In this document: piece after piece, positions 6,001-37,679 of the stretch
Layout: the number at the start of each line of letters is the position of its first letter
Position numbering within the stretch: the first letter of the stretch is position 1
From: Haloferax litoreum
GTDB taxonomy: Archaea > Halobacteriota > Halobacteria > Halobacteriales > Haloferacaceae
Assembly: GCF_009674605.1 (NCBI RefSeq)
Contig: NZ_WKJO01000001.1
Location: 1,488,001-1,552,000 of the forward strand
DNA: 64,000 nucleotides
Direction: 5' to 3'
Translations under genes and position numbers: made by a program
Notes under the pieces: generated by a model
The model's database searches: none
Seen by the model: the letters and a program-made list of their open reading frames with translations, nothing else
Told to the model about the DNA's origin: nothing

Positions 6001-7182
6001 TCAGTCGTCGGCGACGGCGCTGTCGGACGTCGCCGCACAGCGGTTCGGGCCGAGTTCGAGTTCGTTCTCTTCGTCCTCGCCGTCCGGTTCGTACTCGCCG
6101 GCGTTCGTGGCGATGACCGTCTCGTAGTTCGGGGGCTTCGAGGGGAGGTTCTCGAACATGTGTTCGACGAAGTCGTCTTCTGCCATCCGGAGAATCTCGT
6201 TGTTCTCCCAGAGGTAGCCGACCGTCGAGAACATCGGCTGACCGGGCGTCACGTCGATGTACTGCCCGTCGTCGGTGACCGAGAAGTGCCCGGGCAGAAT
6301 CTTCACGTCGTTCGGTTCGGTCATGATGACGCGGTGGAGCGTCTCGTACTGGACGCGAGCGCCGTCACGGGCGTCCTTGTCGGCGAACTGCAGTTCGGTC
6401 CGGCCGATGGACTCGACGAACAGGGTGTCGCCGGTGAGGAGTGCCTCGTCGTCGACGAGGTAGGAAGTCATGCCGGTCGTGTGACCGGGCGTGTGGACGG
6501 CCTTGATGTCCACGTCGCCGAGTTCGACGGTCCCGTTCGGTTCGATGGCGTCGAACTCGAACTGTGGGTCGCGTGTCTCGGCGGGCTTGCCGAGGTGGTA
6601 CGGCACGTCGAGTTTACTGGCGAGGCGGCGACCACCGGAGATGTGGTCCGCGTGGATGTGGGTGTCGAGGATGTGTGTGACTTCCAGACCGCGTTCGGTG
6701 GCGGCGTCCACGAAGACGTCGGTCGCACGGGTCACGTCGACGAGGGCGGCCTCTCCTGCCGACTTCGAGCCGACGAGGTAGCCGAGACAGCCCTTCGACC
6801 GACGCTGGAACTGAAGGAGGACGAGGTCGTCGTTCGAGGTGGAAATCGGAACGACGTCGTAGACCATACTCCACGACTCCATCCCACCTTCGACGGTCTT
6901 GACGTCGTGGGCGAAGCCCTCTCGTTCGAGGTATTCGGCGAAACTGCTCGCCGAGTTGCCGGTGGCACAGATGGTCACCACGGTGTCGCCAGCGCCGATG
7001 TCGTCTTTGTAGGCGTCGAAGTCACCGACGAGTTCGTCGTTGTCGCCCGAGTATTCGACGTTCTCGGCTTCGGCGATGTGCCACCCCTCGAAGTCCTCGG
7101 GGTTTCGCGTGTCGAAGAGGACGAAGTCCTCGTCCGCATCGATCATATCCCTCAGCTCTTCAGCCGTGATGGTTTCGACCAT
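6001..7182 (-). CDS. Rhodanese/metallo-beta-lactamase fusion, persulfide dioxygenase-like
   Basis: A 393-residue fusion. Residues about 1-105 form a rhodanese domain with active-site Cys in ICATGNSAS. Residues about 125-360 form a metallo-beta-lactamase domain with the THIHADHISGG metal motif, AVHTPGHTTG and LPGH, resembling ETHE1-type persulfide dioxygenases. This family oxidises glutathione or protein persulfide to sulfite. The start MVETITAEEL at 7182 is supported by a TATA-like box 29 bases upstream, consistent with a leaderless mRNA. It leads the DUF7512-like/TauE cluster, which could carry the sulfite away. Confidence 0.88.
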   Translation of the reverse strand: MVETITAEELRDMIDADEDFVLFDTRNPEDFEGWHIAEAENVEYSGDNDELVGDFDAYKDDIGAGDTVVTICATGNSASSFAEYLEREGFAHDVKTVEGGMESWSMVYDVVPISTSNDDLVLLQFQRRSKGCLGYLVGSKSAGEAALVDVTRATDVFVDAATERGLEVTHILDTHIHADHISGGRRLASKLDVPYHLGKPAETRDPQFEFDAIEPNGTVELGDVDIKAVHTPGHTTGMTSYLVDDEALLTGDTLFVESIGRTELQFADKDARDGARVQYETLHRVIMTEPNDVKILPGHFSVTDDGQYIDVTPGQPMFSTVGYLWENNEILRMAEDDFVEHMFENLPSKPPNYETVIATNAGEYEPDGEDEENELELGPNRCAATSDSAVADD

Positions 7183-7208
7183 ACACGGTATTGTATAGGA
7201 AATGCACG

Positions 7209-7213
7209 TATAA
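7209..7213 (-). promoter_or_regulatory. TATA-like box for the persulfide dioxygenase-like gene
   Basis: TTATA on the minus strand, centred 29 bases from the ATG at 7182. That spacing places the transcription start at or next to the initiation codon. The call is made by position and composition only. Confidence 0.5.
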
Positions 7214-7395
7214 GGGTTCGAGCGAGACACGTTATTTCCGGCTTCTTACGGGTCGAATCGGCTATTTCCCGTTTCAGAACGAGATACATACAATAATTGT
7301 GGCTACCTCTCTCGGAACCTCCCGACGAAGCGACCGGTCACTAGTGAAACAATACCTTCATGCAAGGTGAATTCATACCCAATATTGCGAGGTAC

Positions 7396-8493
7396 ATGAA
7401 CAACTCTGAGATAGAAGACGTCCTCCGAGAGTTGCCGCCGAGTTCGAAGTTCATCTACAATACGCTCCTTCGGATGGGGTCGATGACGCTGAAAGGACTC
7501 ACCGAAGAGACGCTCCTCTCGTCGCGCACGACGCGCTACGGACTCACGCAACTCGAAGAAGCGGGTCTGGTCGAGTCGTCGCCGGCGCTCCACGACGGCC
7601 GACAATCCTGTTACAGTATCGCCTACGGCGCAGTCGGAGGCGACAGAACGGAGTTCGCCCGCGGTGCGCTCGTCGACCCCGAGTGGGTCCGGCAGCGTCT
7701 CGACGCGTTCGAGGCGGACGACCCCGAACTTAGACTCGTCGAGGTCACCGACTCCTACGACGAGGGCCACGTCCGTGGTGCGGTTCACCTCGACCCGAGC
7801 GAAGACTTCCTCGACGTCGATACGGCGAGTATTCCGGGAACCGAGACGCTCGAACCCGTCCTCGGCGAACTGGGTATCACACCCGACAGTACCGTCGTCC
7901 TCTACAGCGACGGGTTGAACGAGTACGCTTCGCTCGTCTACTGGACGCTCAAGTATTACAGACACATGGACGTGCGACTCCTCGACGGCGGGAAGTCGTA
8001 CTGGGTCGACGCGGGGTTCCCGACGACGCACGACGTGCCTGTCGTCTCGGAGGTGGCATACACGGCGCAGAACCCTCACGAGCGCATTCGGGCGTATCGG
8101 CGCGACGTGCAAGCGGCGCTCTCCCGAGACGTGACCATCGTGGACGTTCGCTCGCCCGAAGAGTACCGCGGCGAGACGGCAGGGGGGGCAGATGCTCGCG
8201 TCGCCGGCCGGGTTCCCAACACGGTCAACGTGGAGTGGACGCAGATGGTCGGCGATGCGGGTCGGTTCAAAGGTCGCGGCGCACTCGAACAGGAGTTCGC
8301 CGAGATGGACCTCGACGAAGACGATGAGGTCATCGTCTACTGTAACGTCGGCGAACGCTCGGCACTTGTGTGGTTCGTCCTCTCTGAACTCCTCGGCTAT
8401 CAGGCCGTCTCGAACTACGACGGGTCGTGGACGGAGTGGGGCAACATGGTTGGCGCACCGATACGTACCGGCGACCCCTCAGAAAACGAGTAA
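7396..8493 (+). CDS. Winged-helix/tandem rhodanese sulfurtransferase-like protein
   Basis: A 365-residue protein. Residues about 1-75 form a winged-helix domain (SKFIYNTLLRMG... RTTRYGLTQLEEAGLVES). Two rhodanese domains follow. The first has Ser where Cys is expected (VLYSDGLNEYAS) and should be inactive. The second has Cys316 in VYCNVGERSA and should be active. Tandem inactive/active rhodaneses are typical of thiosulfate sulfurtransferases; the DNA-binding domain suggests a sulfur-responsive regulator. It is divergent from the persulfide dioxygenase-like gene. The start at 7396 was preferred to 7360 because the winged-helix domain begins with MNNSEIEDVL; this choice is uncertain. Confidence 0.85.
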   Translation: MNNSEIEDVLRELPPSSKFIYNTLLRMGSMTLKGLTEETLLSSRTTRYGLTQLEEAGLVESSPALHDGRQSCYSIAYGAVGGDRTEFARGALVDPEWVRQRLDAFEADDPELRLVEVTDSYDEGHVRGAVHLDPSEDFLDVDTASIPGTETLEPVLGELGITPDSTVVLYSDGLNEYASLVYWTLKYYRHMDVRLLDGGKSYWVDAGFPTTHDVPVVSEVAYTAQNPHERIRAYRRDVQAALSRDVTIVDVRSPEEYRGETAGGADARVAGRVPNTVNVEWTQMVGDAGRFKGRGALEQEFAEMDLDEDDEVIVYCNVGERSALVWFVLSELLGYQAVSNYDGSWTEWGNMVGAPIRTGDPSENE

Positions 8494-9355: not shown

Positions 9356-10540
9356 TCAGGGGAGGGGGTCGTACCCGCGCATCCAGGCGTTCCAGTAGAA
9401 CGCGGGCAGGACGTTGATGTCCATTATCCAGTTCATCCGACTCTCGACCGGAGCGGAGATGCTCTCCTCGTAGTCGAACTCTGCGACCATCGCCTTGCCC
9501 TTCTTCGTGAGGAGCGGACACGCCGCGTATCCGCTGTACTCCTTCGTCATCCGTCCGCCTTCGACGAGCGACGAAAGGTTGTCGGCGACGACGTGGGCCT
9601 GCTTGCGGGCGGCAGCGGCGGTGCGCGACTTGGGCGTGTCGTCGGCGTCACCGAGGGCGAACACGTTGTCGTACTCGGTGTGTTGCAGGGTGTAGTCGTC
9701 GACGGTGATGTACTCGCCGTCGTTCTCTTCGTCACCTTCGGTCAGCGGCGAGTTCTCGGTGACTGCGGGTTGGCCGTACTGAGGCGAGACGGGAGCGTAC
9801 AGGTCGTAGTCGAGTTCGTCGCCTTCTGCCGAGTGGATGACCTGATTCTCGTGGTCGACTTCGGAGACGGTGAAGTTCGGTTTGAACTCGATGTCGCGGT
9901 CCTCGTATATCTCTTCGAGTTTCTCGCGGTAAGGTGAGACGCCGAAGATGGCATCGCCGGGTTTGGTCATCACGACGTCGACGTCGTCGCGGATACCCTG
10001 TCGCTGGAAGTAATCTTCCGCCAGCATGGTCATCTTCATCGGCGCGCCGCCGCACTTGATGGGAGTGTCGGGGACGGTCACGACGAACGTCCCGCCGTCG
10101 AAGTCTTCGAGTGCCTCGCGCATCGCCACCGCGGCCTCGTAGTGGTAGTACGGATACACCGCGTCGGTCTGTTCCCACCCCTCTGCCATGCCGGGGATGG
10201 TCTCGGGGGCCAGTCGGTGGCCGAGCGAGACGACGAGGTAATCGTACGTGAGGTCGTCTTCGGCGGCGTCCAGATTGACTTCCTGAGCATCCGGGTCGAT
10301 GCCGACGACTTCGTCCTCGACGAACTCGACGCCCGACTGCATCACGTCGCGAACGTCGCGGAACTGGTCTTCCGGTTCCATGTACCCGAACGGAATCAGG
10401 TAGAACGACGGTTGGTAGACGTGGTCGCTGCTCTTGTCGACGATACTGATACGGACGTCGGAGCGGTCGAGTTTCCGACGGAGGATGTTTGCCGTCATCG
10501 CTCCGCCAGCACCAGCCCCTAGCACGACAATGTGCTCCAT
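9356..10540 (-). CDS. Sulfide:quinone oxidoreductase-like FAD/NAD(P) protein
   Basis: A 394-residue flavoprotein beginning MEHIVVLGAGAGG (the FAD Rossmann loop), with a GDADDTPKSRTAAAARKQAHVV second FAD motif. Cysteines in TPIKCGGAPMK and GYAACPLLTKKGK sit where SQR enzymes place their redox cysteines, and the Tyr/Trp-rich C-terminus would suit membrane or quinone contact. It probably oxidises sulfide to persulfide or polysulfide, feeding quinone. The start at 10540 was chosen over GTG 10552 because the Rossmann strand begins there. It forms an operon with the DUF1641 gene. Confidence 0.87.
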   Translation of the reverse strand: MEHIVVLGAGAGGAMTANILRRKLDRSDVRISIVDKSSDHVYQPSFYLIPFGYMEPEDQFRDVRDVMQSGVEFVEDEVVGIDPDAQEVNLDAAEDDLTYDYLVVSLGHRLAPETIPGMAEGWEQTDAVYPYYHYEAAVAMREALEDFDGGTFVVTVPDTPIKCGGAPMKMTMLAEDYFQRQGIRDDVDVVMTKPGDAIFGVSPYREKLEEIYEDRDIEFKPNFTVSEVDHENQVIHSAEGDELDYDLYAPVSPQYGQPAVTENSPLTEGDEENDGEYITVDDYTLQHTEYDNVFALGDADDTPKSRTAAAARKQAHVVADNLSSLVEGGRMTKEYSGYAACPLLTKKGKAMVAEFDYEESISAPVESRMNWIMDINVLPAFYWNAWMRGYDPLP

Positions 10541-25013: not shown

Positions 25014-25526
25014 ATGACAGAGACATCTACGGACAGCCCTAGCGACGGCCAGAACTATCAAACACTCAATGAAAATACGACTCGGGCTGAAATATTCCCA
25101 GCGAAACAGCACAAAGAGGAATGGTGGGAAGAAGCCGAACACGAAGGGTCCAGCCTCAGTCGCTATCTCTACGACCTGATTCAAGAAGCCAGGATGTACC
25201 GAGACAGCGGCGCACCCTTCATCCAGACACAAGACCAGACAGTGAAGCAACTCCAAAACAAAATCGACGACCTCCAATCCCAACTGGAAGAAGCTCGGCA
25301 GGGTGGTGGTGGTGGTCGAACCCATCTCAGTATTGATGACCTCGTTACCCGAATTCTGAACGAGCAATATCAATCGCTAGACGAACTCATCGAACGAATC
25401 TCTGCGAGTGATGAAGTAGCCAATCATCTGCAAGGCCAAATCGAGAATCGACTGTACTCTCTCGCAGAAAAAGGCCGAGTAGAATATCAACGCGGTCACG
25501 GATGGCGGCTCAAGGAGGAGAACTAG
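25014..25526 (+). CDS. Integrase-partner protein, coiled-coil, unknown
   Basis: A 170-residue protein immediately upstream of the integrase, with one base between the two genes. Residues about 35-60 read KEEWWEEAEHEGSSLSRYLYDLIQEA, followed by a coiled-coil (QTVKQLQNKIDDLQSQLEEA), a Gly run and a C-terminal winged-helix-like part (ENRLYSLAEKGRVEYQRGHGW). I have seen such genes beside haloarchaeal integrases. It may act as a directionality or DNA-binding factor. A truncated relative is encoded at 38010-38180. Confidence 0.7.
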   Translation: MTETSTDSPSDGQNYQTLNENTTRAEIFPAKQHKEEWWEEAEHEGSSLSRYLYDLIQEARMYRDSGAPFIQTQDQTVKQLQNKIDDLQSQLEEARQGGGGGRTHLSIDDLVTRILNEQYQSLDELIERISASDEVANHLQGQIENRLYSLAEKGRVEYQRGHGWRLKEEN

Positions 25527-25527
25527 C

Positions 25528-26463
25528 ATGGGAGCTGAACCCGGTTCCTCGAAAATCTATGAGAACAAACACTACGAGGTCAACTACTTCATCACACGAA
25601 AACAGGCAGCTGGCAGGAGCGAGAGAACGCTTAATTCGTACAGCCGAGTCCTCCGCAAGTTCTTCCACGACCAATTCCCAGAACTCTCGCCTGATGAAGT
25701 AGAGGTTCGGCACGTTGAGGACTATCTAATGGCCCTAACGAAACGTGGCGTCTCCCAGAACTCGAAAAAGAAGTACCTGGAAGTCCTCTCCAGTTTCTAT
25801 GGCTATACGCTGAAACGGCCGCAGTTTGAGGGAATCACGAGTAATCCCGCAGCAATCGTACTGGAAGAGATATCTCGAATTCGTCCTGACCGCCCCGACT
25901 GTGCGACGTGGGAGAATGCCTGTAAACTCATCCACGCCATTCCAGACCCACGAGACAAAACTGTAGCCATCATCTTAGCGAAAACGGGGGCTCGTCTCCT
26001 CGAAGCTCTCTCAATCGAAGAAGACGACGTAGACTTAGAGAAGGGATTCATCCGACTCCGAGAACGAAAAGGCGGAGGCCAGACTGTAGTACCCATTGAC
26101 GACGAGACAATCTACGCTATCAAACGCTATCAGTTCATCAACGCCGATTCCGATTCCCCGTATCTCTTCACGAGCAACCTGGGAGGGCGTCTCAGTAAAG
26201 AAAGAATCCGACGAGAAGTAAAAGCCGCTGCCGACCGCGCTGGTGTCGCCCCCAAGGAAGAACGGCGGTTCGAGAAGAAGTTCACACCTCACACGTTCCG
26301 AACGGTATTCACAACCCTGATGCGGAAGCAGGGGATGAAGCCGTACATTCTGAAATACATCCGTGGTGACGCCAAGACCGAGACGATGGATATCTATACT
26401 CGCATCGACCGGGATGATGCGAAAGAAGAGTACCTGAACTGCATCAAGGAAATCGGATTGTAG
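25528..26463 (+). CDS. Tyrosine recombinase (XerC/D-type integrase)
   Basis: A 311-residue integrase. The N-terminal SAM-like core-binding domain spans residues about 15-95. The catalytic domain has Arg in KTGARLLEAL, a beta-hairpin Lys in RERKGGGQT, His-x-x-Arg in HTFR (residues 255-258) and nucleophile Tyr290 in MDIYTRI. It is thus complete and apparently active. It starts one base after the partner gene and probably belongs to the element that built this island. Confidence 0.9.
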   Translation: MGAEPGSSKIYENKHYEVNYFITRKQAAGRSERTLNSYSRVLRKFFHDQFPELSPDEVEVRHVEDYLMALTKRGVSQNSKKKYLEVLSSFYGYTLKRPQFEGITSNPAAIVLEEISRIRPDRPDCATWENACKLIHAIPDPRDKTVAIILAKTGARLLEALSIEEDDVDLEKGFIRLRERKGGGQTVVPIDDETIYAIKRYQFINADSDSPYLFTSNLGGRLSKERIRREVKAAADRAGVAPKEERRFEKKFTPHTFRTVFTTLMRKQGMKPYILKYIRGDAKTETMDIYTRIDRDDAKEEYLNCIKEIGL

Positions 26464-28413: not shown

Positions 28414-28767
28414 ATGTCTAGAAGCAATGGCGGTGGAATTCTATTTGAGACATTCGTAAATGTCGTTCGAGCATTACAAGACCTAGATGGTAAAGCTAGA
28501 AACAAGGACATAGTCGAATCAGAGTACACGACTCGGGATGAACGCCAAGTCCTCAATGTTCTCCAAGAACTTCGGAGAATGGGATACGTCACGGATGAAA
28601 AACGAGGGATGTACACATACTGGATAGCAGATGAATATGACCTAACTGTCTTCTATACTAGAGAAAAAGAATACTTGGACAATCTAACGACTGGAGAAGA
28701 ATGGAACGAACAAAAAAGAGAATATATGTTAAAGAAGCTTCGTGACAAGAGTCCCGAATTAGAGTAG
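28414..28767 (+). CDS. Winged-helix DNA-binding protein
   Basis: A 117-residue protein. Residues about 8-70 form a winged-helix fold (IVESEYTTRDERQVLNVLQELRRMGYVTDEKRGMYTYWI), where the recognition helix and wing are evident. The rest is charged and helical. Its position between small unknown genes and the 14-bp iterons suggests an island regulator. Binding to the iterons is only a possibility. Confidence 0.7.
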   Translation: MSRSNGGGILFETFVNVVRALQDLDGKARNKDIVESEYTTRDERQVLNVLQELRRMGYVTDEKRGMYTYWIADEYDLTVFYTREKEYLDNLTTGEEWNEQKREYMLKKLRDKSPELE

Positions 28768-28811
28768 GTGTTGTCCCAAAGAAGAGTGTACGAGTCTCCT
28801 CTCTTCTATAC

Positions 28812-28826
28812 TACTATAATATAGTA
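28812..28826. repeat. Palindrome TACTATAATATAGTA
   Basis: An inverted repeat with seven-base arms around one central base, just after the winged-helix gene's stop. It may be a terminator or a binding site. Its arms match those of the palindrome upstream of the transducer gene. Confidence 0.4.
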
Positions 28827-28990
28827 ATAATGCATTTCGTCACCTCTGCGCAGTCTGTTGTTTTCCCTCAATGAGAATAGCCAAAATCGACATATATTTT
28901 AATTAGATTGAGATGGCTGATTTTTGTCGTGCGAAGGATAGGGGCATAAATTTTATGCAATTATTGACAAGGAAATTATCACTTTTCTAT

Positions 28991-29057
28991 TTGTAACCTT
29001 TGGAATGGCCAAAATGAAGTTTCCAAAGGTTACAAGCGCTCTCTCCAAAGGTTACAA
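28991..29057. repeat. Three 14-bp iterons (TCCAAAGGTTACAA)
   Basis: Identical 14-bp copies lie at 29022-29035 and 29044-29057 on the plus strand, and at 28991-29004 in inverted orientation. Centres are 31 and 22 bases apart. They sit 75-140 bases ahead of the 29132 gene. Such an array suggests an operator or a Rep-type origin. No Rep gene was recognised beside it. Confidence 0.75.
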
Positions 29058-29131
29058 ACAGAATTCGGAGTTAGATATATACGCACTCGTCAATTTTTCT
29101 CAAATAGGCAGAATACCTGCCCAGATAAAAT

Positions 29132-30001
29132 ATGAGTAGCGATACTTCATCCAAGCAGCCACCGCTAAAAGCAAGAATCGACGTTCGCCCGACGCAAATG
29201 AAAGAGCTCCTTGAGCACGCCGGACTCCGACCAGACGGCCGATACAACTCCTACCACCCTGAGATTCGACTCCGAATCAGCAACGACCAGGTCGAGACGA
29301 TTGCATACAACTCCGCAAAAGGCGCAATCACCTACGGAGTCTACGAATCCGAATACTTCGACAGTCTCTCCGTCGTAAACGGAGAAACCATCAATGCAAT
29401 CGTCAACCCCTACAAGATGCAGGAGGGACTGAAGCTCCTTCTGAATCAGCGTCAGGGGACCGGGAAAAAGTCCCCACCCGTGTTCCATATCGAGTTCTAT
29501 GATGTGGCCCCTAGCGGATACGCACAGAGCTATACAGCCGAGGCAGGGCTGAAACAGATTCGGGAATGTCCGGTTGCAAAGCGCGCGAAGAACAGCTTCC
29601 CTACCGGAGTCACAAACCTGTTCAATTCGAACGGCCGACTCTGCATCAGCGACAGCCCGGCACCGACTGTCATTCAGACGAAGACGGACGCTTTGATGCG
29701 CATCACGAAGGCAGGGATGAAAGTCAACCACGGCGACTCATTCGAGATTAAGGTCGAAAACGGAGACTTCCGCATCGACATCCACGATAAGAAAGGTAAC
29801 AGCGTCAGAGGAGTCCTCAGCTCGAACGTTCAGGGGCCAGACTTCAAAAATGCGTACGGAGAGGCATTTGCTCAGGTTGCAAAAAGTCTCGAAGACGGAA
29901 ACGTAGAGCTACAGAGCGGGCCAGGTCAGCGGCTCGCGGTAATTCAGGAAGGCGACCACTATCGCGCTCACCACGTAATCGCTCCGGTCAAGAAGCCGTA
30001 A
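29132..30001 (+). CDS. Hypothetical protein behind iterons
   Basis: A 289-residue protein, mostly beta-rich, starting MSSDTSSKQPPLKARIDVRP. The N-terminal half alternates short strands with charged loops (LRISNDQVETIAYN... YFDSLSVVNGETINAIV), which is faintly reminiscent of a PCNA/beta-clamp arrangement, but no clamp signature is certain. It has no signal peptide or metal-site pattern. I do not recognise a family. It is downstream of the iteron region and may be controlled by it or may bind it. Confidence 0.6.
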   Translation: MSSDTSSKQPPLKARIDVRPTQMKELLEHAGLRPDGRYNSYHPEIRLRISNDQVETIAYNSAKGAITYGVYESEYFDSLSVVNGETINAIVNPYKMQEGLKLLLNQRQGTGKKSPPVFHIEFYDVAPSGYAQSYTAEAGLKQIRECPVAKRAKNSFPTGVTNLFNSNGRLCISDSPAPTVIQTKTDALMRITKAGMKVNHGDSFEIKVENGDFRIDIHDKKGNSVRGVLSSNVQGPDFKNAYGEAFAQVAKSLEDGNVELQSGPGQRLAVIQEGDHYRAHHVIAPVKKP

Positions 30002-30202: not shown

Positions 30203-30469
30203 TCAGTCCTCAGAACTCCCCTCCTCGTAGCCAGCTTCGTATTCCTCGCGTAGCGTCTCTGACGCCTTCTTTGAGACTTTGATGACGCCCTTGTTGAAGC
30301 GCCTGATGGCGATGTAGATGTACAGCAGGAGGAGATACGGCCAGAGAAACAGCCCGATGACGGCATAGACGACGAGTTTGAGAAATCTGTACTCTAACGG
30401 ACCGATATGAATGCCACCAATCTGAATGCCGCGCGATTCGCCATGCTCGTCGCTGTCTAAATCAGTCAT
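30203..30469 (-). CDS. Small membrane protein, unknown
   Basis: An 88-residue protein with an acidic start (MTDLDSDEHGESRG). Two adjoining hydrophobic segments follow (FLKLVVYAVIGLFLWPYLLLLYIYIAI), and then a charged coiled tail ending SSED. It faces the 29132 gene tail to tail. The start is the ATG at 30467-30469. No family was recognised. Confidence 0.6.
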   Translation of the reverse strand: MTDLDSDEHGESRGIQIGGIHIGPLEYRFLKLVVYAVIGLFLWPYLLLLYIYIAIRRFNKGVIKVSKKASETLREEYEAGYEEGSSED

Positions 30470-30744: not shown

Positions 30745-32016
30745 TCAGCTATCCTCTAACAGAGAACAAATCTGCTCGTCCATTCTGTTGTGGACGCGGT
30801 CAATATACTCACTGAAACTCTCGGTTGTGGTCGGGATCGGGAATTCTGCCAGAGTAAGAGGATACTCGTCTACGACAGAGTACTGTGTCTCGACATCGCC
30901 TCCTTGCTCAGGATAAATCAGAATACCAGGGACATCGTGAGCGAACTGATACGAAACCATCTGATAGAAGTCCGAATTCGGAGGGCGACCCAGCTTCCAC
31001 TTTGCATCACCAACAAGTACGATCTGCTCTTCCGAGTCCCGAATGAGGATGTCCGGCCGAATTGAAATGGCCCGCTTTCCATCGGTGACTAGGTTTCGGG
31101 TTGTCACTTGTGATGCGGCTCTCCACTCGGTATGTCCCTCGGTTACTTCTGCAACCGCTCGCTCTACAGCTCGCTCGAAAATTTGGTTCATGTCGATGAG
31201 CAGAGCAAACGAACTTTGGTTCCCAGTTACAAACTCTTTGACGTAGATACTCCTGAGAACAAGTCTTGTGAGGCGGAGTAGGTCTGCATAGTACTCATTC
31301 AGACGTGTGAGCTCAACGCGATCTAACGCCGCAGGCTTAGTCGGTTTTAGTGTGACTCGTTGACGAAGGAGATGACGGTGCTTGAGTAGAGAACGCTTCA
31401 GATGCTTGCCACGGACGAATCGGGTGAGTATGGATGTTGCAAAGAGAATCGACTGATTTGGGACCGTATCATAGGTCAGCTCTTCGTAGGAGCATTCAAA
31501 TTGAGTCGGAGCAACGCCTTGTTTCTGAATCTGCTTCTGGACGTTTAGCCGCCCTCGAAGGTGCTTTTCAGTCTCTTCGACTCGCCGATAATCCCGATGT
31601 AGACCTTGGCGAATAACGCTCTCAAGTTCAGCTTCATACAGTGCTGCGAGGGCCTCGATAAACGTGCTCCCGGCCGATATAGAGGTTTCTCGCTCAATAG
31701 TCACGGACTCGACGCCATGAGCATATCGCAAGAAATGAAGGAGGTTAGTTTGCTTCGTCTTTGGACGAATCTGTATTGTCGGACCATCTGGGAGCGATAC
31801 AATCCCCACGTGCTGTGTTGCCCGAAGCACCGCATTCCCGTCACGGTCAAATGAAACGCTCAGACGTTCTCCATCGCTGTTAACTTCCGTCTTTAGCATC
31901 CGTAGCGCGGAATCAGTCAGATCGAGTGGATCGGTTTCCTCATACTCTCGCAATATGATGTCGACACTCTCGCCATCTTCGCTGTCCAGTAGTGGGAACG
32001 AAGTAGACTGTGCCAT
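30745..32016 (-). CDS. mcrC: McrC-family restriction endonuclease subunit
   Basis: A 423-residue McrC-like protein. The N-terminal part reads TQHVGIVSLPDGPTIQIRPKT. The C-terminal PD-(D/E)xK nuclease core has RPDILIR near residue 320 and LVGDAKWK near 336, with the catalytic Asp and Asp-x-Lys. It is the nuclease partner of the McrB-type motor just upstream, six bases away. Together they cut DNA with modified bases. No cognate methyltransferase gene is adjacent, as expected for a modification-dependent system. Confidence 0.9.
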   Translation of the reverse strand: MAQSTSFPLLDSEDGESVDIILREYEETDPLDLTDSALRMLKTEVNSDGERLSVSFDRDGNAVLRATQHVGIVSLPDGPTIQIRPKTKQTNLLHFLRYAHGVESVTIERETSISAGSTFIEALAALYEAELESVIRQGLHRDYRRVEETEKHLRGRLNVQKQIQKQGVAPTQFECSYEELTYDTVPNQSILFATSILTRFVRGKHLKRSLLKHRHLLRQRVTLKPTKPAALDRVELTRLNEYYADLLRLTRLVLRSIYVKEFVTGNQSSFALLIDMNQIFERAVERAVAEVTEGHTEWRAASQVTTRNLVTDGKRAISIRPDILIRDSEEQIVLVGDAKWKLGRPPNSDFYQMVSYQFAHDVPGILIYPEQGGDVETQYSVVDEYPLTLAEFPIPTTTESFSEYIDRVHNRMDEQICSLLEDS

Positions 32017-32022
32017 GATCTG

Positions 32023-35000
32023 TTAGTGCTCTCTATCTGCGTTCGTCAGTGTTCCCGATTGAACCTCTGAGCGAATGGAATCAAGGCGCTTGTTGTCGAA
32101 TGCAGGGTGTCGCCAGTAATCTGGCCCCGAAACAGGTCTATCGTGATCGGAGACTTGCTCAAGTACAGCTCTCGCCAACCCGGAGAACGAGTATTCTTCG
32201 TCATTGAACAGCCACCGGACACCGTTACTCTGCCCCGATTTTCCGGTGACCTCACATCTCCAGAAGGGATCTGAAGAATCGTATGGTCGGTTAGATTCCT
32301 CAGGGACTTTATCGTCGCTAAAAACAAGCTCGTCACCGCTCTGGAGTACGTTCTCTTCTAGTAGAAGGTTCAGCGTATAGATTGTCTCTGAACTGTCGTC
32401 AGCACTCCCATTGACCTCCTCCTCAACTAGGTCGATATCTACGAACTCAGCAAGTGCTCGTCGCAGATCATCTCGTGTGAAGTCCGAGATCTCCTCTGAC
32501 TCCCAGTGGAACAATCTTCCTCCACTCGCCTGGAAGAGCTCTTCTCGAATCCGTTCAAACTGCCCGAAATAGTACTCTTCGAGGAGCGGAAGAATCTCGA
32601 ATTTCCAGGCGTCAACGATGTCTGCTGCTTCATCGAGATTCATCAGATAGGAATGACCGATCTGCTTCCCCTTCCCCAAATCAGGTGTATCAACGATGGT
32701 CTCGTTTAGCTCCCGAACCGCCAAAACTGAGAGCGCCACCAAACTTTGGTAGGGGTCCGAACTGGTCTGCGCCACCTCCTGAATCTCACCTAAGCTCTCG
32801 AAGTCGTGGTGGTCGATCAAGACGGAGTAGTTTGGCGGGAATGCTAAGAATCGGAATCGGCGACGAAGGGCGGCGTCAACTAATGCAATCGAACGGTCCG
32901 CCGTGTTCATCGTCCCGATCACATAGAGATTTGGAGGGACTGTGAACGGTTCTCTGGAGTGAGATAGAGTGATCTCTACTTCGTTGGGTTGGTCGAGGCG
33001 CTTGTCACTTTCGAGGAGCGTGATGGTCTCACCGAAGATCTGCGCGAGGTTCCCGCGGTTGATCTCGTCGACGATCAAGACAAAGCGACGTGCTTCATCG
33101 AGGTCGTCATTCTGTTTGGCGTGTTGGTATGCCGTTTCTGCCCGTTGGCAAATCCGTTTGAAAACCCCAGCCTGAATTCTGTATTCCACCATCCCGTCAT
33201 CAGCCTCAGCGGTCAATCCTTCAATGAAGTCCTCGTAGGAGAATGAAGGATGGAATGTGACTGTTTCGAGCTGCTGTGTCGTCGGTGTGTGATCTGATTG
33301 CTGATTAAGCCACCAGTGAGCGAACTGACGTGCAGTATACGTTTTCCCGGTTCCCGGCGGTCCGTAGAAGACGAGTTGTTGAGCTTGCTCTAATTGGCGC
33401 TCAATTGTGTCGGTATCTGACGGTTGCCGGTCTGGTGGAGTGAGGATATCACCACCATCTCCCCTATGTCGACCCTGTAGTAGAGCTTTGAACTTCACGT
33501 GATTCATGTTCGGAGTGATCTCTACCTCGCTCTGGAGATCACGCAATAGGACAACGAACAGTACCTCTCCCTGATTCAAACTCGAATTTTTGATCGTCCC
33601 AGATCCAATCTCGTCTGCTAATTCCTTGAGTTGAATTCGGTGATCTTCGTAGACATCCACGATCTGTTCACACTTGACCGAGTCTGTCGCGGTAACGACA
33701 GCATCAATAAGATCGCTACGACGAAGTGCTTCGGTCCAATCACGAACAATTGTCTCTGCGAGTCTCTCGTTTAACCAGTTTTGAGCACCTTCGACCTGAT
33801 CGATACGTGCACGAATGTCCTTCGTTGCTTCCTTTATCCCGTCATACTGGTCGGCTGGCGGGAGTTGAATATCCCCGTTTAGATCGTATCCTCTCTCTTC
33901 GAGTAAATTTGCGAGATGGGGCGACTCCTCAACAAAGATCTTAACCAGCTCATCTGGACACTGCGTGAAATAGTGACCTTGGTTGAGTGAAAGTCGTTTG
34001 CTGTAGAATATTTTCCCGCTCTCTTCTCTGATCTCGCGCAGACGGTCTTGATACTCAGGGTTCTCTAGGATCTGTTTGTATACATGGATATGTGGCTCAA
34101 TTCCTTGGTAGTCTTTGAGCCAACGGAGGTATCCACCTTGCACCTGTTGTTCTTCGGTCCATCGATCATCCGGCGGCCCCTCAAAGTCTTCTTGGAGCGC
34201 TGAATCAATCACCGATATTCCAACAATTTGGTGTTGATCCTGAAGGAGATGGAGAACGATATCTCCAGCTTCGGCTTCGCGCATCGCTTCGTAGCGCTTC
34301 TGTCCCCCTTTGTCTCGACTGGGGGACATGATCGCCTTCCCGAGTTTGAATTCTCCTTTTTGTTTGTACGGGCGATTTGCAACCTGTGTCTTCTCGATCC
34401 AAATTGATGGGTCTGGGCTTGTGTCTTGTCTCATGTCCTCAGAACTTTCTAATTCAGAAGAGTCACTAGTCTCCTCAGTGAGACCAGATGAGCCTGGCCT
34501 GCGTTGGACTACATTCTCTTCGTCGAATGAATCCAGGAGTGACTGGTAAAAGCCGCTTTCAACGATTTCCTGGTATGAAGCAACAAGCTCGCACAAATCG
34601 ATCACAAGGTCATTTTCACTAGGGAATTGACTAGCGTCATAGGAACGGTAGCAGATCGTTGAATCGCCGTAGTACTTGTTTCGCCCAGTCAGCAATTGGC
34701 TTGGGAGTTCGATACTTTCCATCTCGAATCGGTCGAGGTCGATCCGAGTTCGGAGTATCTCAGCACGCTTTGAGAGGACCTCTTTCGTTGCCCCAAGGCC
34801 ATAATTGTCCTTGAGCTGAGTCATCCCCTGGTTGAGAGTCAGAAAGAGCCGATCCTCGACCGTGTCAAACAAATAGACAACATAGAGGCCATCTTGTGGC
34901 CCTTCCGCAACTCGTTGATCGAAAACTCCAATCCAAGGGATATTCGCCATTCTCCCTGTACCGCTTGACCCACGTACGTTCAGATGCTCAGGCTCGATTC

Positions 35001-35433
35001 CATAGGTAGTTGCAGCATCGTGTTTTAGTTTAGATTGAAATTCCCCAGGGAGTTCGGAGTTAATTAGAGAAACGACAGGATGATCCCAATCTTCCTCTGA
35101 CTTTGCCTCCAGGAAGTGGGTAAGTGCATACTGGGCCTTCATGTTGAGAGAAGAATGAGGGATAGGGAGGCTTTCTGATGAGTTGTTACTGGAGGGAGCG
35201 CTCAAATTCTCAACCCGATATCGGCCATTTCCTTTCGCATCTAATTCACCAGCATCTCGGAGCTCTTGGAGAGTTCGCCGAGTAGTTGCCTCCCACGTAT
35301 TATTATCTGGAAATTTTTCTCGAAGAGTCGATTCGGAGAACGCCAGTAGGTCTTGTAGATCAAATTCCTGCGTATCATGTTGATCGCAGTACCGCGTGAT
35401 TTCAGCGCGGATCGTGTCCCGCCATTCAGACAT
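32023..35433 (-). CDS. mcrB: McrB-type AAA+ motor with N-terminal wHTH, MrcB_N-like and EVE-like readers
   Basis: An 1136-residue multidomain protein. Residues about 1-75 form a winged-helix region (TTRRTLQELRDAGELDAKGNGRY). Residues about 95-300 resemble the MrcB N-terminal DUF3578 domain. Residues about 343-520 are EVE/PUA-like (DIVLHLLQDQHQIVGISVI), a modified-base pocket fold. Residues about 690-1000 are the McrB AAA+ domain with Walker A GPPGTGKT at 691-698 and RFVLIVDEINRGNL as Walker B, plus GTMNTADRSIALVD. The GTP- or ATP-driven motor would translocate DNA for the McrC cut. The domain stack suggests an unusual target modification. Confidence 0.87.
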   Translation of the reverse strand: MSEWRDTIRAEITRYCDQHDTQEFDLQDLLAFSESTLREKFPDNNTWEATTRRTLQELRDAGELDAKGNGRYRVENLSAPSSNNSSESLPIPHSSLNMKAQYALTHFLEAKSEEDWDHPVVSLINSELPGEFQSKLKHDAATTYGIEPEHLNVRGSSGTGRMANIPWIGVFDQRVAEGPQDGLYVVYLFDTVEDRLFLTLNQGMTQLKDNYGLGATKEVLSKRAEILRTRIDLDRFEMESIELPSQLLTGRNKYYGDSTICYRSYDASQFPSENDLVIDLCELVASYQEIVESGFYQSLLDSFDEENVVQRRPGSSGLTEETSDSSELESSEDMRQDTSPDPSIWIEKTQVANRPYKQKGEFKLGKAIMSPSRDKGGQKRYEAMREAEAGDIVLHLLQDQHQIVGISVIDSALQEDFEGPPDDRWTEEQQVQGGYLRWLKDYQGIEPHIHVYKQILENPEYQDRLREIREESGKIFYSKRLSLNQGHYFTQCPDELVKIFVEESPHLANLLEERGYDLNGDIQLPPADQYDGIKEATKDIRARIDQVEGAQNWLNERLAETIVRDWTEALRRSDLIDAVVTATDSVKCEQIVDVYEDHRIQLKELADEIGSGTIKNSSLNQGEVLFVVLLRDLQSEVEITPNMNHVKFKALLQGRHRGDGGDILTPPDRQPSDTDTIERQLEQAQQLVFYGPPGTGKTYTARQFAHWWLNQQSDHTPTTQQLETVTFHPSFSYEDFIEGLTAEADDGMVEYRIQAGVFKRICQRAETAYQHAKQNDDLDEARRFVLIVDEINRGNLAQIFGETITLLESDKRLDQPNEVEITLSHSREPFTVPPNLYVIGTMNTADRSIALVDAALRRRFRFLAFPPNYSVLIDHHDFESLGEIQEVAQTSSDPYQSLVALSVLAVRELNETIVDTPDLGKGKQIGHSYLMNLDEAADIVDAWKFEILPLLEEYYFGQFERIREELFQASGGRLFHWESEEISDFTRDDLRRALAEFVDIDLVEEEVNGSADDSSETIYTLNLLLEENVLQSGDELVFSDDKVPEESNRPYDSSDPFWRCEVTGKSGQSNGVRWLFNDEEYSFSGLARAVLEQVSDHDRPVSGPDYWRHPAFDNKRLDSIRSEVQSGTLTNADREH

Positions 35434-35564: not shown

Positions 35565-37679
35565 ATGGTCAAATATCTGTACTGTCATCATAACAGATAT
35601 GTCCCACACGAACCTTTGTTAAATCGAACAATGGTAAAGGTCCGAACAGAAACGCTACAACGGGCATACAGCAAAATTGTAGACGACGGAAAGGACCTTC
35701 ATATCTCTGGGCAGCCAGGGATTGGGAAAACAGAGTTCCTCAACAATCTGACCGAAGAGATACCCAGTCAGTATACGGTCAAATCAACGACTGTCCGCGC
35801 ACACCACGATCACAACAGTCTTGAACGCGATCTCCTTCATCTCGCCCGTAGAGCAGCACCAGAACGAGATACAAAACCAAACCAACTTATCAGCGCTTCT
35901 GCTGGTGCCGGACCCATTAGTGGCGGTGGAACAGTGGATGACCGTGTCCGCGACCTATACAAACTAGAGGATCTAACTGCAAATTGGTCGAACGACCCGC
36001 TCCTCCTCTGCATTGATGATATCCACAAAATCGCCGACGATGAGCAAGTTGTCCGGGACATTATCGGCGAACTTTCCTCTAGCCTAGGTCAGGGTGTCCA
36101 GCTCATCACCCTCGGGCAAATTCGGATGCCTGGTGGCCATGAGCTCGAGGATATCCACCTAAACCTATACACACTTGGTGAGACCCGAGTGTTCCTCCAA
36201 GAAGAGTTTGGGAATCTTCCGGAGGATACTGTTCGTGATGTTCACTCTGTAGTTGAAGGCCACCCACTCTATCTCAGTTTACTCACCGAGTCCTCTGAGG
36301 ATGAAACAGACTTCGATCTCCCTGAATATGCAGTACTGGATACTATCGAAGAACGATACTTGGAAGCTCTCCCCCGAGATACGGTGAAATTTCTGCGCCA
36401 ATTCGCACCTCTCCCGGAATTAAGCGAAAAACTCTGTGCTGGACTGTTTGAGGAATGGGATGCTCTCGAAATCGACCAGAAACTCCGAGAATTGGATCGA
36501 CGAGTAATCGTCCAACAGGTAAACCGGACTGATGACGGTGATAAAATCTACAAAATCCACGAACGCTTCCGCACCTTCCTTGTCCGAAAAAACCGTGACG
36601 CAGACGACGTCCACCGCGGAGCCTTCCAGTACCACCTCCAAGAGGTGACTGATATGCTGGCGCAAGAGCGTGACGAGAAGTGGGTGAACTCACTTCCGCA
36701 CTGGTTCTATGCACGGTACCACTTAGATCAGGTTCATGGGGAAAATGCTGGGTCAGAAGCGTTTCGAGAAGAACTCGACTGCATTGATCTCACCTACCCA
36801 CACCGTGGCCTTGTCATGCTTTATGCGGGAGTCTGCCTTCTCCCAGGAAACATTTTCTCTGCCTGGGAGCAGGAACTTCCCCTGTTCCGGGAATGGGTGT
36901 TCGATACGGTTGAGAACCAGCAACAAGCAGAACTGGTTGTTCGGGTATGTGAATGGGCATTGAGCCAGCTTGGAGATGAACCGATGGAACTCTCGGAGAT
37001 CCAAATTGAAGGGAGCCTGGATGATCTCCCTGAGGAATCACAGGTCTTCAACGATGTTGAATTGGCCGACGCCCATCTTCATCGTCTGCGGAAACTACGG
37101 GGGCACATCCTGCGATTTCTCTTTCTTGAGGAGCCGTATCAAAGTAAAGCCCATCGGGAGTTGATGATCAATGTTCTCAGCACATATGGGATCAGCAAAG
37201 AGATTCTCTCTCAATTAAAACAGCGTATCAAATCCATTCTCAAGGCAAGTGAACTTGGTGAGGAGTTTGATCAGCTTATAGAGCAGTATGCTGAATCTAT
37301 TGGAACTGAGTTTGAGAATAGTTTGAATAGCAGCCTTGACTTCTATGAGTTGCGGGACCAAGCGATGAACCTAGGCCGTGAGGCGTTTGACAACCTTCAC
37401 TACGACCTGTTGCTTGATTCGGGGTTGATCCATGAGATTGCTTTAGAGGGCGGTGAGGTACTCGAGGAAGCAGAGAATCCTGTTTTTGCGATGGTGTGGT
37501 ACAGTCTATTTGCGACGTACTTCCGCAATGCAAATGTGGTTCCTTCAGCCTTTGACCAGGTGAAGGAAAAATACATGGAGCAGTTAGAGCGGCGTAAGCA
37601 GTATGAGCAATCGATTGAGCATCCCATTATATTCGCAGAGGACTCTGCAGAGGGGCTGTCATTAGATGAGCAGGATTAG
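35565..37679 (+). CDS. STAND-type P-loop NTPase
   Basis: A 704-residue protein. It has Walker A GQPGIGKTEF near residue 49, a Walker B LLLCIDDIHKI near 145, sensor-like ITLGQ and a winged-helix-like region with KIYKIHERFRTFLVR near 320. The C-terminal 350 residues are helical with no recognised effector. It is a STAND/AAA_16 member, a class that includes many antiviral sensors. It is divergent from McrB across 131 bases. The start at 35565 is uncertain; MVKVRTETL at 35631 is an alternative. Confidence 0.75.
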   Translation: MVKYLYCHHNRYVPHEPLLNRTMVKVRTETLQRAYSKIVDDGKDLHISGQPGIGKTEFLNNLTEEIPSQYTVKSTTVRAHHDHNSLERDLLHLARRAAPERDTKPNQLISASAGAGPISGGGTVDDRVRDLYKLEDLTANWSNDPLLLCIDDIHKIADDEQVVRDIIGELSSSLGQGVQLITLGQIRMPGGHELEDIHLNLYTLGETRVFLQEEFGNLPEDTVRDVHSVVEGHPLYLSLLTESSEDETDFDLPEYAVLDTIEERYLEALPRDTVKFLRQFAPLPELSEKLCAGLFEEWDALEIDQKLRELDRRVIVQQVNRTDDGDKIYKIHERFRTFLVRKNRDADDVHRGAFQYHLQEVTDMLAQERDEKWVNSLPHWFYARYHLDQVHGENAGSEAFREELDCIDLTYPHRGLVMLYAGVCLLPGNIFSAWEQELPLFREWVFDTVENQQQAELVVRVCEWALSQLGDEPMELSEIQIEGSLDDLPEESQVFNDVELADAHLHRLRKLRGHILRFLFLEEPYQSKAHRELMINVLSTYGISKEILSQLKQRIKSILKASELGEEFDQLIEQYAESIGTEFENSLNSSLDFYELRDQAMNLGREAFDNLHYDLLLDSGLIHEIALEGGEVLEEAENPVFAMVWYSLFATYFRNANVVPSAFDQVKEKYMEQLERRKQYEQSIEHPIIFAEDSAEGLSLDEQD

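Follow-up and report, generated by a model that had tools for sequence, protein, structure and literature searches.

A three-box repeat array follows a stand-alone winged-helix gene in an integrative element of Haloferax litoreum and four related elements

The window analyzed here, a 64,000-nt stretch of the Haloferax litoreum genome, contains three exact copies of a 14-bp box between the gene for a small winged-helix (wH) protein and the next gene downstream [Table 1]. An inverted pair of boxes at a nearly constant distance past this gene recurs in elements of four other haloarchaeal genomes, and the pair follows the wH gene, not that for the downstream clamp-like protein or the integrase. 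With moderate confidence, we favor the reading that the array is a cluster of binding sites for the wH protein that controls transcription of the first gene downstream; binding by the wH protein and the transcriptional output are both predictions from sequence. The preliminary description of this DNA had proposed an operator or origin array in a mobile element, and what stands of this proposal is an array that looks like a set of binding sites, with the same architecture in the elements of four more genomes.

Table 1. The repeat array of the window, the sequence elements around it, and the genes of the integrative element
Feature	Positions	Strand	Details
170-aa protein, directly before integrase	25014-25526	+	89% identical in G289 and G337
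Tyrosine recombinase/integrase	25528-26463	+	PF00589 E 2.5e-22, PF13495 E 4.5e-10; NF040815 above cut-off
Conserved element protein, 104 aa	27143-27457	+	homologues in related elements
Conserved element protein, 69 aa	27831-28040	+	homologues in related elements
Conserved element protein, 70 aa	28044-28256	+	homologues in related elements
wH protein, 117 aa, candidate box-binding factor	28414-28767	+	TrmB E 0.016, below cut-off
AT-rich segment past wH stop codon	28806-28844	+	ends in TGCATTTCGTCACC, invariant in 5/5 elements
Box 1	28991-29004	-	exact TCCAAAGGTTACAA; inverted arm, TTGTAACCTTTGGA on + strand
Box 2	29022-29035	+	exact TCCAAAGGTTACAA; second arm, beginning 31 bp after the start of box 1
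Box 3	29044-29057	+	exact TCCAAAGGTTACAA; promoter-proximal, 22 bp from box 2
TATA-like element TATATAC	29076-29082	+	putative promoter element
Divergent protein, 289 aa, first gene past array	29132-30001	+	probably sliding-clamp-like (PCNA fold)
88-aa protein	30203-30469	-	homologues in G289, G337, G212, G365, and G441 elements

The preliminary description had listed three exact copies, two direct and one inverted, in AT-rich DNA, and the positions, the orientation, and the G+C content (36.5% in 28768-29131 and 30.6% in 28870-28990, vs. 57.4% across the window) are all borne out. Together, boxes 1 and 2 make up a perfect inverted repeat of 15 bp around a 15-nt gap; with box 3 as its second arm, box 1 is part of a longer inverted repeat, of 20 bp, at 95%. 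The form of the array is that of a perfect inverted pair with one additional direct box and not that of a tandem iteron array. With low-complexity words excluded, the box is the sole exact 14-mer in the window with three non-overlapping copies inside 100 bp. No three-copy 14-mer of this kind occurred in 60 first-order Markov copies of the window, and among 3,000 Markov copies of the surrounding 380 bp not one had even two 14-mer copies inside 60 bp; two-copy repeats inside 60 bp are also present elsewhere in the window. At up to three mismatches, the three matches to the box are ordinary (shuffle mean 2.25, with three or more matches in 39 of 100 shuffles). This mismatch-tolerant control is uninformative on exact copies, and the excess therefore rests on the exact-copy Markov tests.

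Genome-wide abundance of the motif, which had been named as the outcome that would speak against the preliminary description, is absent. Throughout the H. litoreum genome (3.56 Mb, three contigs), the box has its three exact copies, none with one or two mismatches, and 58 with three; the backward control gave 84 matches at up to three mismatches, i.e., above the 58 three-mismatch matches of the real motif. Because the genome holds no further copy, the array appears to be a dedicated local site. A chance repeat is ruled out by the genome-wide uniqueness together with the Markov tests and the recurrence across 392 genomes of the order.

In this latter search, the exact sequence TCCAAASGTTACAA was found in five of the 392 genomes at nine places: the three copies of the window, an inverted pair each in G289 and G337, and one copy each in G182 and G109. 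As an inverted pair, it occurs only in H. litoreum, G289, and G337, with the arms 30 and 31 bp apart in the latter two, and the backward control gave at most one match per genome per column (judged by eye). The single copy in G109 was taken as chance; its locus has no gene in common with the window element. Two more arrays, in G212 and G365, were found through the wH gene; they escape the exact pattern, as each arm bears one substitution, giving TCCAAGGGTTACAA. Relative to the window, the arms are unchanged in G289 and G337 and have a single mirrored base change in G212; G365 carries the same change, with one further change in its second arm. The five array-bearing elements span five genera and four families according to the genome labels.

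What, then, does the array accompany? A profile built from three wH proteins and run over the 392 genomes matched nine of them. The protein stands alone, at 117 to 118 aa, in five (H. litoreum, G289, G337, G212, and G365; 77% identity to the window protein in G289 and 70% in G337), and the profile also matched longer frames in G002, G280, G260, and weakly G097; the G002 and G260 frames come after an integrase gene. A second search, of 222 genomes of the class, matched seven genomes and added no stand-alone wH protein. The weak matches in long frames, of G097 in the order search and of G097 and G290 in the class search, were excluded from the stand-alone count. All five stand-alone wH genes found among the order genomes are followed by the inverted pair. 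G441 provides the contrast: its locus (L057) retains the integrase operon, but its wH protein has 212 aa and is only 30% identical (alignment A3), and no motif copy at up to two mismatches, and no inverted pair, is present in 16 kb. A similar integrase operon with a different wH gene thus lacks the pair, from which it follows that the array accompanies the wH gene. Since the five elements share a common descent, this link stands on five lineages and one contrast.

The gene directly past the array changes. It had been described as the protein that the array lies "ahead of", and this part of the description needs revision: the array accompanies the wH gene and a promoter-like element, and the downstream gene differs in the other four elements, where the ORF is 123 to 178 aa as called and has no BLASTP match to the clamp-like protein (the two that were scanned, those of G289 and G212, have no Pfam match). 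The clamp-like protein was rejected as the partner of the array because G289, G337, G212, and G365 keep the wH gene and the array with a dissimilar gene downstream.

In another, very improbable, reading, the boxes would be accessory sites that serve the integrase or proteins assisting it. The integrase gene is present in all five array-bearing elements at 90 to 95% identity across the set (91% in G289 and G337), in keeping with such a role, but the integrase of G441, where the inverted pair is absent, is 94% identical to that of G289, which makes the integrase unlikely as the array binder. Moreover, the array is internal and intact in integrated elements, and its spacer of 16 to 17 bp is much longer than the 6-nt spacer of dif sites (PMC8371274).

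The geometry of the array is kept in all five elements. The inverted pair starts 226 to 229 nt past the last wH codon, the 14-bp arms are spaced 30 to 31 bp apart with a spacer of 16 to 17 bp between them, and box 3 sits 21 to 22 bp past box 2. The window repeats the sequence of box 2 as its box 3, while the other four elements have the palindrome CCAAACGTTTGG at the same position. TATAC follows the start of box 3 at 34 bp in the window and at 35 bp in the other four, i.e., the sites stand at a fixed distance from a putative promoter element in orthologous loci. This conservation is set in diverged flanking DNA: upstream of the inverted pair, the window aligns with the other four at 48 to 49%, and past TATAC at 39 to 41%, compared with 73 to 76% for the wH coding sequence. 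Between the wH gene and the boxes, the AT-rich segment past the stop codon is a candidate terminator or unwinding element.

Spacings of 30 to 31 and 21 to 22 bp correspond to about three and two helical turns and would thus align the boxes along the same side of the helix, a layout that fits cooperative binding. We propose that the wH protein would bind the three boxes cooperatively on this side and that its place on box 3 and the inverted pair would bring it beside the TATA-like element. There it would activate or repress the first downstream gene, here that of the sliding-clamp-like protein. Some features argue against an operator. The inverted pair, about 40 to 85 bp upstream of the TATA-like element, is further upstream than a simple operator needs. 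In addition, the inverted pair keeps a fixed distance from the wH stop codon, as an origin that follows a Rep gene would do too, and the wH proteins have relatives among replication proteins.

Box 3 itself seems to belong to a promoter, since a box-3-like copy with one mismatch lies upstream of the ParB-clamp operon in L056 (G182), where the block TCCAAACGTT has the TATA-like sequence ACACTTA at offset 30; this block is placed elsewhere relative to the Prim-Pol/wH gene of G182. A degenerate form of the box-3/TATA block is found in G441 (judged by eye). As box 3 of G212 and G365 lacks the substitution seen in the arms, boxes 1 and 2 may bind one protein and box 3 another.

The inverted pair could alternatively act as a nucleic-acid hairpin, either a transcript structure that ends the wH operon or a DNA cruciform, and not as a protein site, a reading that we consider quite unlikely. 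Its arms are perfect, and G212 and G365 each show the same substitution mirrored across the two arms. The predicted fold of the array region has z-scores of -3.8 to -5.9 in the five elements, each better than 200 shuffles, with box 1 pairing with box 3 in the best fold of the window. Micro-inversions linked to hairpins have been reported. In L109 (G365), positions 9399-9442, the inter-arm spacer runs opposite to that of the other four elements: the 16-nt spacer is the reverse complement of the G212 spacer at 15 of 16 positions, a pattern like that of such micro-inversions, and the flipped alignment outscores the direct one in each of the four comparisons (shuffle p of the flipped alignments between 0 of 2,000 and 0.0015). 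The direct alignments also beat most shuffles (p 0.004 for G212 and 0.011 for G289), and the case for a flip therefore rests on the score differences. The mirrored arm substitution and the spacer inversion suit a hairpin-prone repeat. A hairpin, however, leaves the extra direct box 3 of the window and the 21 to 22 bp phasing unexplained, the arm sequence itself is conserved beyond mere pairing, and no T-run is seen by eye past the arms.

A further possibility, which we hold tentatively and incline against, is that the excised element would replicate from the array as its origin. The wH protein, as a stand-alone origin-binding domain, would bind the inverted pair, the AT-rich DNA would open, and the clamp-like protein would be a replication factor. 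In support of an origin, the pair has its constant place past the wH gene, in AT-rich DNA, and the region is hairpin-prone as judged by the fold energies above, even though the best fold of the window joins boxes 1 and 3. The wH protein is also homologous to the C-terminal wH part of Prim-Pol proteins from related elements (428 to 429 aa in G280 and G182; PF09250 E 4.2e-11 and 3.3e-9) and to the longer G002 and G260 ORFs. A possible parallel is the SNJ2 provirus, whose putative origin lies downstream of a wHTH-containing Rep (PMC13107129). On the other hand, no primase or nuclease domain, and no replication domain of its own, was detected in the wH protein by domain-model scans, a promoter-like element stands at a fixed distance past the array, and no copy of the motif at up to two mismatches is present in G280, G002, and G260, whose elements are of the Prim-Pol type. 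A plasmid or viral form was not found in the records searched, and all five arrays are on contigs of at least 345 kb. The halovirus search put forward in the preliminary description came out negative: the inverted pair was not found in viral contigs, and no phage or plasmid record matches the clamp-like protein or, above chance, the wH protein (none, or only at E of 2 and above). A more specific proposal, speculative and in our judgment unlikely, is that the array is the origin of haloarchaeal integrative replicons that form a so far undescribed family. Here a stand-alone wH protein, related to the C-terminal domain of Prim-Pol proteins, would initiate at a hairpin-prone pair with a flippable spacer, and an exchangeable cassette (clamp, ParB plus clamp, or other) would aid replication or partition. 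Operator and origin functions could also be combined in one shared complex. The AlphaFold model of the wH protein from the single sequence is poor (mean pLDDT 44.8).

The protein encoded downstream of the array had been called unidentified. It indeed has no Pfam, PHROG, or NCBIfam match, yet it belongs to a divergent family that, from profile comparisons, is probably PCNA/sliding-clamp-like. Relatives, some of them fragmentary, occur in 14 of 392 order genomes and 16 of 391 class genomes, H. litoreum included. The family profile was built from 14 members, with the matches of G344, G410, G056, and G310 excluded as fragmentary, truncated, or outlying, and the PCNA profile from 29 of 31 haloarchaeal PCNA loci, a motif filter having removed L064 and L075. 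The G310 protein bridges the two (PCNA profile E 1.2e-10, family profile E 1.7e-4) and is the best non-member for both among 1,137 sequences; against Pfam PCNA_C it reaches only E 0.059. Compared directly, the family and PCNA profiles give a weak match (global P 1e-4 with a probability of 29.6%; local P 0.013 with one of 3.3%). The PCNA profile did not raise family members above background ORFs, the curated PCNA model matched neither the window protein nor, at E of 1 or below, any of the 12 members of alignment A2, and the family profile matched solved structures only at E 0.22 and above, including a bacterial beta clamp at 0.65. The single-sequence model of the window protein is poor (mean pLDDT 35.2), with only the order of strands and helices compatible with a clamp. 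In comparison with PCNA and other sliding clamps, the protein is compatible in length and in the order of its secondary structure, and it is linked to the haloarchaeal PCNA profile by the G310 bridge; it differs in having no direct PCNA-model match, and the family differs in that one relative is fused to ParB_N and some lie in phenylacetate clusters.

In the fused relative, at L034 (G280) 6538-8136, the clamp-like domain and an N-terminal ParB_N share one 532-aa frame (PF02195 E 4.6e-6), and in L035, L056, and L057 a separate ParB-like gene adjoins the clamp gene. Chromosomal clamp-like copies in conserved synteny are found near 7000-9000 in L026, L027, L028, L029, L031, and L033; that of L028 adjoins phenylacetate (PaaA/PaaC), FeS-assembly, Nop, and GCS2 genes. 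No close clamp relatives were found in viral contigs, phages, or plasmids, and the wider genome contigs yielded a single short match, at 34% over 57 residues, on a contig of Candidatus Aegiribacteria. In G280, G182, G441, G231, and G056, no comparable array was found among the repeats in the examined stretches next to clamp or ParB-clamp genes. A 28-nt direct repeat (79%) is present just past the Prim-Pol gene in L056 (G182), at 7011-7038 and 7116-7143, the place that the array has in the window.

The elements themselves share more than the array. In the four other genomes, the array adjoins homologues of the integrase, of the 25014, 27143, 27831, and 28044 proteins, and of the 28414 wH protein. 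The relatives of the integrase include one from a Natrinema plasmid, at 59.7%. No tRNA gene that would mark an edge of the element was found in the window or in seven loci. An McrBC-type pair (PF10117; MrcB_N and AAA_5) is encoded at 30745-35433 of the window, a related McrBC-type pair is present in the G182 element (L056 11314-15502), and the G289 element has a GmrSD-type restriction protein; these are exchangeable defense cargo of the elements. Beyond the McrBC pair of the window, positions 35565-37679 encode a protein of 704 aa that matches the AAA_16 ATPase family (PF13191 E 5.1e-9).

A bare repeat has in this way become a testable pair, a small wH protein and its likely three-box site, the geometry of which is kept while the neighboring cargo changes. 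Should the array be an operator, it would give an integrative element of haloarchaea a compact switch, which might also be of use as a genetic tool; should it be an origin, it would show element replication without a recognizable Rep enzyme. The array has also led to an unannotated, probably clamp-like family on mobile elements, once fused to a ParB domain. A search of non-subscription literature found no title or abstract describing the array or the element family.

Among known systems, that of the SNJ2 provirus (a betapleolipovirus, Rep-Arvir family) is described as having a putative origin made up of an inverted repeat and an essential hairpin at most 210 bp downstream of the wHTH-containing Rep, whose operon includes the integrase after excision (PMC13107129). 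The two systems are alike in an integrase operon with a wHTH gene, followed by an inverted repeat or hairpin within about 200 to 230 nt, and in a conserved motif soon past the stop codon. They differ in that RepSNJ2 combines an endonuclease with the wHTH whereas the window protein is wH only; in that the SNJ2 hairpin spans 22 nt (176-197) next to a separate short inverted repeat, compared with 14-bp arms, a spacer of 16 to 17 bp, and a third box in the window; and in that replication is demonstrated for SNJ2 (PMC13107129), while the window array is known from sequence alone. The window has an inverted repeat, with a predicted hairpin, shortly past a wHTH gene, as in SNJ2, but no Rep-Arvir (PF25227) gene lies directly upstream or anywhere else in it. 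Two PF25227 matches occur in the H. litoreum genome outside the window (C1:113039-114064 and C1:1798645-1799670), which suggests betapleolipovirus-like elements there.

Iteron-type plasmid origins consist of three or more direct repeats at regular spacing. The array shares with the iterons of theta plasmids a similar box length, a spacing of about 22 bp, and nearby AT-rich DNA with the gene of a small DNA-binding protein. It is unlike them in having two direct copies and one inverted, and thus a single direct 22-bp step, with a different palindrome in place of box 3 in the four relatives; the gene adjoining it is not that of a known Rep but that of the wH protein, homologous to the C-terminal part of Prim-Pol proteins. 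Haloarchaeal upstream activator boxes, such as the GvpE sites, lie directly upstream of the TATA region. The array differs from the GvpE sites in sequence, in having a candidate rather than an established factor, and in the extra inverted pair further upstream, and it resembles them in the position of its boxes directly upstream of a TATA-like element.
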